From the NCBI GenBank assembly GCA_947306365.1, contig CAMZGD010000007.1, positions 1 to 64,000 on the forward strand: a stretch of DNA of 64,000 nucleotides. The letters run 5' to 3'. A program made the position numbers and the translations under genes. Below are positions 4,881 to 6,104 of the stretch, piece after piece. How positions within the stretch are numbered: the stretch's first letter is position 1; every line of letters starts with the position of its first letter. The notes beneath the pieces are model-generated. The model was given only the letters and a program-made list of their open reading frames with translations, had not been told where the DNA came from and did not search any database. The DNA comes from an uncultured Bacteroidales bacterium. Lineage in GTDB: Bacteria; Bacteroidota; Bacteroidia; Bacteroidales; UBA932.

Positions 4881-6104
4881 TCAGCGGTTCTTGTACATAT
4901 CGTCGTAGTAACGCTGGTAGTCGCCGCTCGTCACGTTGTCCATCCATTCCTGATTGTCCAGATACCAGCGTACTGTCTTTTCTATTCCTTCTTCGAACTG
5001 CAGCGAAGGTTCCCAGCCGAGTTCCTTCTGCAGTTTCGTACTGTCGATCGCATACCGGAGGTCGTGGCCGGCCCGGTCGGTCACATAGGTGATCAGGTGG
5101 TCGCTCGTGCCTTCGGGATTGCCCAGCAAGCGGTCCACCGTCTTGATCAGCACCCGGATCAGGTCGATGTTCTTCCACTCGTTGAAGCCGCCGATATTGT
5201 AGGTTTCGGCCACTTTCCCTTCGTGGAAGATCAGGTCGATGGCCCGGGCGTGGTCTTCCACGTAGAGCCAGTCGCGCACGTTCTCGCCCTTTCCATAGAC
5301 GGGCAGCGGTTTGCCGTGCCGGATATTGTTGATGAACAGCGGGATCAGTTTCTCCGGGAACTGGTACGGGCCGTAGTTGTTCGAGCAGTTGGTCACCACG
5401 GTCGGCAGGCCGTAGGTGTCGTGGTAGGCGCGCACGAAATGGTCGGAGCTGGCTTTGGCGGCGCTATAGGGGCTGTGCGGCTGGTATTTGAGGTCTTCGG
5501 TGAAGAACCGGGTGCCATAGGCCAGATGGTGCTGTCCGCTCGAGGCTTTCGTCGTGAACGGCGGTTCCACGCCTTCGGGGTCCGTGATCTCCAGCGCACC
5601 GTACACTTCGTCGGTCGAGATATGATAAAAGCGGCACTCCGTTGCGGGAGAGGGCCCTTCACATCCGCTACGGCTGTCCGCACGGGCCTCCCCGCAAAAA
5701 CTCCGTGAAGGGCCCTCTCCCACAGCAGGCAGCCGATATGCATGGGGTTCCCAGCAGAGCTTCGCGGCCTGAAGGAGCGTCAGCGTTCCCATCACGTTGG
5801 TCTTGGCGAAGGTGAACGGATCCTTGATGCTCCGGTCCACGTGGCTCTCCGCCGCCAGGTGGATGATGCCGTCCACTTTCTCTTCCTGCAGCAGGTTCAC
5901 GACACCCTCGAAATCGCAGATGTCCATCTTCACGAACCGGTAGTTCGGCTTGTCTTCGACATCCTTGAGGTTGGCCAGGTTGCCGGCATAGGTCAGCTTG
6001 TCCAGGTTGATGATCCGGTAGTCCGGATACTTGTTCACGAAAAGCCGGACAACGTGGCTGCCGATGAATCCGGCGCCGCCGGTGATGAGGAGGGTGCGTT
6101 TCAT
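4881..6104 (-). CDS. rfbB: dTDP-glucose 4,6-dehydratase with an in-frame palindromic insertion
   Basis: A 407-residue extended short-chain dehydrogenase that converts dTDP-glucose to dTDP-4-keto-6-deoxyglucose on the way to dTDP-rhamnose for surface glycans. It shows the NAD-binding GGAGFIGSH (residues 9-17), LAAESHVDRSI, the catalytic STDEVYG (near 163-169), the YSAAKASSDH Tyr-Lys pair and NNYGPYQFPEKLIP. Between LLQAAKLCWEP and FYHISTDEVYG, where related enzymes have a loop of about 10 residues, residues about 121-157 are encoded by a palindrome (see the repeat at 5644-5723). The frame stays open. ATG 6104 starts the Rossmann strand. The other rml genes are not in the window. Confidence 0.93.
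   Translation of the reverse strand: MKRTLLITGGAGFIGSHVVRLFVNKYPDYRIINLDKLTYAGNLANLKDVEDKPNYRFVKMDICDFEGVVNLLQEEKVDGIIHLAAESHVDRSIKDPFTFAKTNVMGTLTLLQAAKLCWEPHAYRLPAVGEGPSRSFCGEARADSRSGCEGPSPATECRFYHISTDEVYGALEITDPEGVEPPFTTKASSGQHHLAYGTRFFTEDLKYQPHSPYSAAKASSDHFVRAYHDTYGLPTVVTNCSNNYGPYQFPEKLIPLFINNIRHGKPLPVYGKGENVRDWLYVEDHARAIDLIFHEGKVAETYNIGGFNEWKNIDLIRVLIKTVDRLLGNPEGTSDHLITYVTDRAGHDLRYAIDSTKLQKELGWEPSLQFEEGIEKTVRWYLDNQEWMDNVTSGDYQRYYDDMYKNR
5644..5723. repeat. palindromic element inserted in frame inside rfbB
   Basis: 19-base arms 5644-5662 and 5705-5723 are inverted copies (18 of 19 match, core GGGAGAGGGCCCTTCAC) around a 42-base loop containing CCGCTACGG and GGGCCTCCCCGC. Read on the rfbB strand, both arms give a Gly-Glu-Gly-Pro-Ser-like peptide (GEGPSR and CEGPSP). 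The segment sits in a surface-loop position just before the catalytic motif and introduces no stop or frameshift. Confidence 0.8.

Follow-up and report, generated by a model that had tools for sequence, protein, structure and literature searches.

An in-frame palindrome inside rfbB of an uncultured Bacteroidales bacterium is one copy of a dispersed repeat, named here family A, which according to a covariance model (R1) built from 64 copies occupies about 75 sites, spread over 12 of the 40 genomes examined in one genus. The copies have in common a 42-nt loop and the inner arm; the outer arms vary between copies and yet are complementary within each. Family A is probably a small palindromic repeat, dispersed and carrying no genes itself, similar to the rickettsial palindromic elements (RPEs), spread by an enzyme supplied in trans and both perfected and flipped by template switching.

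The palindrome in rfbB

In the window, by which we mean the whole stretch of 64,000 nucleotides that was analysed, the host gene occupies positions 4881..6104 on the reverse strand and encodes 407 amino acids. Its open reading frame and a score of 457.8 bits to the dTDP-glucose 4,6-dehydratase profile TIGR01181 (cut-off 365.1) identify it as rfbB, and it is the single match in this genome at E<=1e-60. The palindromic element (5641..5726, reverse strand) encodes approximately residues 127-155 of RfbB and scores 101.3 bits to R1 over 5638-5729, this copy being itself among the 64 sequences used to build the model. Alignment and pairing divide it into arm 1 (5641..5662, CCCTTCAC), with a variable outer half and a conserved inner half, a conserved loop or core of 42 nt (5663..5704, ATCCGCTACGGC..CCCGCAAAAACTCC) and arm 2 (5705..5726), the complement of arm 1 and perfect over 5705-5721. 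Around the loop 19 of 20 bases pair, including perfect arms of 17/17 (5646-5662 with 5705-5721, 42 nt apart), and weaker arms of 31 nt with 81% pairing (5632-5662 and 5705-5735) have the same 42 nt between them. A search for inverted repeats with arms no shorter than 15 bp, an arm match of 93% and a loop no longer than 140 returned this one alone in the 64 kb and none in five Markov-shuffled windows. Folded as RNA, it has a predicted energy of -61.1 kcal/mol (z -6.9). A sequence-only reading had already placed an in-frame palindrome with a 42-nt loop in this gene, and our analysis confirms it there.

The same reading had described the frame and catalytic motif as intact, which holds: the 407-aa frame is open through the palindrome, the protein exceeds the TIGR01181 cut-off, and the STDEVYG codons (5598..5618, reverse strand; residues 163-169, counted from the translation) lie just downstream of the inserted loop. 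The insertion point is between a helix ending in ..LLQAAK.W and the strand FYHISTDEVYG. Comparison with relatives also bore out that the extra loop is lineage-specific, but the estimate of about 37 added codons was too high, since the window RfbB exceeds short-loop relatives (378 aa) by 29 residues and relatives that have a longer loop but no element (386 aa) by 21. Across 28 pairs, third positions of the rfbB flanks are 65% identical, compared with about 85% for all positions (the latter being the mean of the listed values). This lower conservation of third positions indicates that rfbB with its insert is under purifying selection; third positions of the loop itself are weak evidence, comprising 12 positions in a segment where 20 of 38 bases were fixed by the collecting pattern. 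In the genome of the window, the copy is most likely without a function in itself and adds a peptide loop to RfbB.

Family A in the genomes and genes of the genus

For alignment, 68 copies were gathered with a search pattern in which 20 bases of the loop are fixed. Of the 27 columns that are invariant in the resulting alignment (A1), 20 are therefore so by construction. A1 holds 64 copies, two others being cut by contig ends and two being tandem copies, and the element as delimited in this analysis measures 86 bp in 57 of the 64, with a loop of 42 nt. Independently of any pattern, BLAST with a 151-bp query matches best in the loop at other loci, which identifies the loop as the conserved part. 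R1 gave 98 matches; 23 are opposite-strand readings of the same palindrome, and 75 sites remain, a total that includes one loop-only match, two copies truncated at contig ends and tandem copies that overlap each other, and that may be low because most genomes offered several hundred candidates each, of which R1 scored 107. The sites are distributed among G015 (34), G063 (8), G018 (7), G008 (7), G029 (6), G023 (5) and G011 (3), and there is one each in the window's genome (G000), G004, G027, G028 and G034, in all five the rfbB copy.

Regarding host range, the 151-bp query matched 12 of 61 genomes (60 relatives and the window's own), all of one genus, with G007 matching by its rfbB flank alone, and none of 24 genomes from the same order outside that genus. 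A looser pattern was found in 12 of the 40 genus genomes, and its reversed control in none. When one genome per species was searched (84,980 species), the exact pattern occurred at 63 loci, all but one titled Bacteroidales or Bacteroidia and many bearing ruminant sample names. The exception (L104, titled Paludibacteraceae) was not counted as a second taxon, because its first 141 bp are exactly those of a contig of another MAG from the same sample. By these searches, family A has so far been seen in one Bacteroidales genus. Plasmid records (72,556) and phage records (50,697) yielded no match, and the viral contigs read among 15 that match a loose pattern have no palindromic arms; on these grounds a phage or plasmid origin was rejected. 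Eight viral contigs (L131, L133, L134, L137 and L139-L142) share an unrelated recurring sequence, CCGCTACGGCGGGTTTTTTAATACCCGCAAAAACT, and their flanks are similar too. The expectation of further copies inside and outside genes was realised in the relatives, but the window's genome, which is 87% complete, gave no other match with the 151-bp query or with R1.

Of the 68 collected copies, 11 fall in recognised genes and most others lie outside. Sixteen further ORFs of at least 125 aa, apart from rfbB, folC and mnmG, span a copy; Pfam recognises a single one of them, in which the element precedes the domains, and none of the other 15. Matches to rfbB were obtained in 35 of the 40 genus genomes, and 30 loci were read, one per genome. 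Eight of them (G000, G004, G015, G018, G023, G027, G028 and G034) have family A in frame at one and the same site and in the same orientation, G023 with two copies in tandem. In G011 the loop holds instead, likewise in frame, a palindrome of another family, B, with arms of 29/29, and by eye those of G007 and G013 hold palindromes of a CGTC type; the other 19 loci have shorter loops in which no repeat was recognised. In the element tree most rfbB copies cluster, together with one intergenic locus group. The G015 rfbB copy adjoins that intergenic group, which has the same arm sequence, and this position could reflect exchange between copies or a separate insertion. The simplest reading is that family A would have entered the RfbB loop once, in an ancestor of the carriers; the insert would have been kept because it left the frame open and because additional residues are tolerated in this loop. 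G015 also carries family A in frame in folC and, in the opposite orientation, in mnmG, and in other genomes these two loops contain other repeats in frame.

No clean empty site was found at folC, mnmG or one intergenic locus. Element-free alleles of folC and mnmG exist, but the loop around the insert has been rewritten by other repeats; at the intergenic locus the element is absent in 14 of the 18 genomes read; some of the 14 carry a different insert, and none offers a clean junction. MITEs are marked by terminal inverted repeats together with a target-site duplication; in family A, inverted arms were observed.

The same genomes contain neighbouring repeats. Family B palindromes, with a core similar to that of family A and differing perfect or near-perfect arms (L153:2260-2392, L093:3899-4054 and L030:937-1022), are matched in 24 of the 40 genus genomes, five times in that of the window. 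CGTC-type palindromes like CGTCATGCCCGGCTTGACCGGGCATCT (up to three mismatches) occur in 22 of the 40, with 93 in G007 and one in the window's genome, and in several of the listed variants both arms change together. They stand in frame in folC, mnmG and, by eye, rfbB, and a match at G036:C1:3348-3374, in the gap between two rfbB matches, indicates that the rfbB loop of G036 may carry one as well. The mnmG loop of G036 and G034 (L207 and L216) holds a further in-frame repeat unit, TGALPQTPPLRPAIAQGSPSRPPLAADAACH, in tandem in G034. At L357 and L360 (G034 and G004), another inverted-repeat insert, recognised by eye (GGCGGACC..GGTCCGCC), stands where four genomes carry family A. Among the 30 mnmG loci (L206-L235; for instance L208 and L221), 27 contain GTTCCACGTGGAAC, and 21 of these the full TGTTCCACGTGGAACA, a sequence resembling the parS site. 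In mnmG, GTTCCACGTGGAAC is mostly translated as VPRGT, and in G027 (L221) as MFHVEH, as if a DNA site were conserved in another frame.

The suggestion that the repeat is selected to be translatable found no support, as the copies have a mean of 3.5 open frames of six compared with 2.6 in shuffled palindromes, and 27% of the latter have four or more. The Gly-Pro-Ser peptide said to be encoded by both arms is present in this copy alone among the eight in rfbB, and we attribute it to the self-complementary GGGCCC.

Arm pairing and core inversion

Over 25 base pairs in the 64 copies, 91.9% of the cells are paired, against 70.3% after shuffling and 39-49% when the arms are slid; the sliding control corrects for relatedness and shuffling does not. 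Change on both sides is seen in 23 of the 25 pairs, amounting to 322 such cells versus 94.5 in the shuffled alignments. The same is observed at a single site: among the eight rfbB copies (without the second G023 copy), 13 of 22 pairs have changed on both sides, with 23 double-change cells versus 5.7 after shuffling and 96% of cells paired. In five of these eight genomes, which are 76-89% complete, no other family A copy was found. Taken together, single-site covariation and the lack of other copies in these five favour correction in place over pairing kept solely by selection during transposition, even if unseen donor copies in the five are possible at that completeness.

The core is found in both orientations. 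Loci were paired by comparing 400-bp flanks, a match being required on both sides, and 71 pairs of copies were obtained, 54 with the same core orientation (36 within rfbB, one being the tandem pair) and 17 inverted. There are eight locus groups besides rfbB, and six contain inverted pairs. In five of these (L018 versus L019/L020/L025/L081; L034/L035/L052 versus L083; L037/L039 versus L105, a group that also includes L048 with arms at 0.75; L042 versus L054; and L056 versus L084) the alignments have colinear flanks and arms, and the loop alone is reversed. The arms of these inverted orthologues are 0.86-0.98 identical, whereas the 1,891 other pairs average 0.68; 5% of unrelated pairs are at least as similar as the weakest (L042/L054 and L035/L083). 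Arm identity in the sixth group is 0.52-0.61, and its copies could be separate insertions. All inversions were seen between metagenome assemblies, not inside one population. Two contigs of one sample overlap by exactly 141 bp, which suggests that the assembly word length in that sample was above the element length; in general, some flips may be made by assembly.

We propose that the arms would fold into a hairpin or cruciform during replication, where the polymerase could switch template between them and copy one arm onto the other, at times also flipping the 42-nt loop; an enzyme supplied in trans would spread the element. Template switching was preferred because one process accounts for both arm homogenisation and core inversion. 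The accessible part of PMC8604942 describes template switching between inverted repeats as homogenising arms and inverting spacers, coding DNA included. Family A has the corresponding features, with homogenised arms and a spacer inverted in place, and the replication step itself is what we infer.

Among the alternatives, the one that survives best, which is possible though not probable, is that family A is of REPIN or MITE type and owes its movement to a RAYT (Y1 HUH) transposase for which a DNA hairpin is required, in which case selection on mobile lineages alone would keep the stem. TnpA-REP is an enzyme that needs hairpins. Excerpts of PMC8266576 name it as the proposed mobiliser of REPs. 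Matches to Y1_Tnp are present in 27 of the 40 genus genomes, and 17 of 68 family A copies have a CGTC-REP half no more than 60 bp away, compared with 53 of 2,876 random points. On the other hand, no family A copy was found at any of 30 Y1_Tnp loci examined out of 68 matches, with about 1.4 kb read on either side; at L248 R1 gave two weak hits of 17-20 bits without the core. G018 has seven copies and no Y1_Tnp match in a genome 87% complete, and the copies at the single rfbB site still co-vary.

A stronger version of the template-switching proposal, which we regard as unlikely, is that family A is a self-perfecting, micro-invertible family in which one arm is copied on the other, the 42-nt core flips and copies within genes reversibly recode a surface loop. 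If this is true, the loops of RfbB, FolC and MnmG could be recoded between sequences such as ..APSRSFCGEA.. and ..APSHPLRQSA.., and both orientations are usually open in frame 1. More doubtful is a micro-inverton, whose core would be flipped by a site-specific recombinase with the inner arms as its recognition sites. Invertons abound in Bacteroidales, conservation of the inner arm fits this reading and the five loci with an inverted core would be accounted for; a spacer of 42 bp, however, is short for recombinase synapsis, and recombination of this kind leaves the co-variation of the two arms unexplained.

It is more improbable again that family A is a structured RNA or regulatory hairpin whose stem is selected for folding of the transcript, as the strong predicted fold and arm covariation could suggest. 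Mismatches comprise 19 G-T and 22 A-C among 1,408 cells and, without the outer three pairs, 14 and 13 among 1,216 cells. Selection on RNA should tolerate G-U and not A-C, so that the equal frequency of the two classes indicates pairing maintained at the level of DNA. In addition, orthologous loci have the loop in either orientation, the hosts are three unrelated coding genes, unlike a leader, and Rfam returned no family at gathering score, microRNA models alone appearing, far below it. A GGC..GCC hairpin inside the loop was tested and has no covariation support. The equality of the mismatch classes was the ground for rejecting RNA selection. The equal mismatches and the inverted cores are the reasons for favouring template switching on DNA over selection on RNA. 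Finally, an ordinary variation in loop length with a palindrome arising by chance has practically no probability, for although loop length does vary among RfbB homologues, the DNA is common to about 75 dispersed sites and five shuffled windows hold no comparable palindrome.

Relation to known repeats

The resemblance to RPEs raised by the sequence-only reading stands for behaviour, as family A is dispersed, in frame, and located in and outside genes. According to the consulted part of PMC3767692, RPE-1 to RPE-7 and the Wolbachia palindromic elements are palindromes of 100-150 bp, some in ORFs with the frame preserved, and different RPE types occur near the same site of one gene, for which hot spots are one of two readings given. 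Like them, family A exists in many copies in the genus (a single one in the window's genome) and leaves the ORFs of rfbB, folC and mnmG unbroken. It differs in belonging to another phylum, in its size of about 86 bp and long conserved loop, in arms that diverge yet stay complementary and in a core present in both orientations. Compared by description, family A appears to work like an RPE.

The remark that such behaviour was not known to be described for Bacteroidota holds less well, and the case is less isolated than thought. As the available portion of PMC3733652 states, REPs are dispersed palindromes, mostly intergenic, with intragenic REP- or RPE-type repeats in coding regions of several phyla and CGTC-tagged repeats in Bacteroidetes, and REPs are listed for some Bacteroidota in an excerpt of PMC12306157. 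REPs measure 20-40 bp, with a short loop and an unpaired GTAG or CGTC tag, whereas family A has 86 bp and a loop of 42 nt, and in copies whose ends show GTAG or GTTG those bases are paired. Membership among the GTAG/CGTC REPs was rejected for its size, loop and tag. The linkage typical of REPIN/RAYT systems, in which the repeats flank or neighbour a RAYT gene, was not found at the 30 of 68 Y1_Tnp loci that were read.

Quasipalindrome template-switch mutation is reported to produce arm homogenisation as well as spacer inversion, coding DNA included (PMC8604942, PMC7202029). The cases described are individual native inverted repeats whose spacers change little, whereas here the process would act on a dispersed family with a 42-nt spacer; the yeast spacer inversions are substitutions of 2-5 bp, against a core of 42. 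The perfect inverted repeats reported inside functional protein genes of Nematomorpha mitochondria (PMC6649704, in part) have arms that encode conserved protein, while the family A insert is extra. Family A shares with invertons a segment present in both orientations between inverted repeats, here between genomes at five loci. Intragenic invertons are inverted repeats within a gene whose flip would recode the protein; family A is comparable in that frame 1 is open in 56 of 64 copies in one orientation and in 57 of 64 in the other. Chanin et al. 2024, on such invertons, is cited and mentioned in PMC11868660. Within the titles and abstract beginnings of open-licence papers, there is no report of family A, nor of a dispersed bacterial palindrome whose core flips.

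Intragenic palindromic repeats are already known elsewhere, and what is new here is family A, an RPE-like variant, by which the range of protein-invading palindromic repeats comes to include an uncultured Bacteroidota lineage. Its related and partly orthologous sites constitute a natural experiment on what keeps dispersed palindromes palindromic and how they spread. The three repeat families found across genomes in the rfbB loop (A, B and the CGTC type) show selfish DNA as a source of new protein segments.
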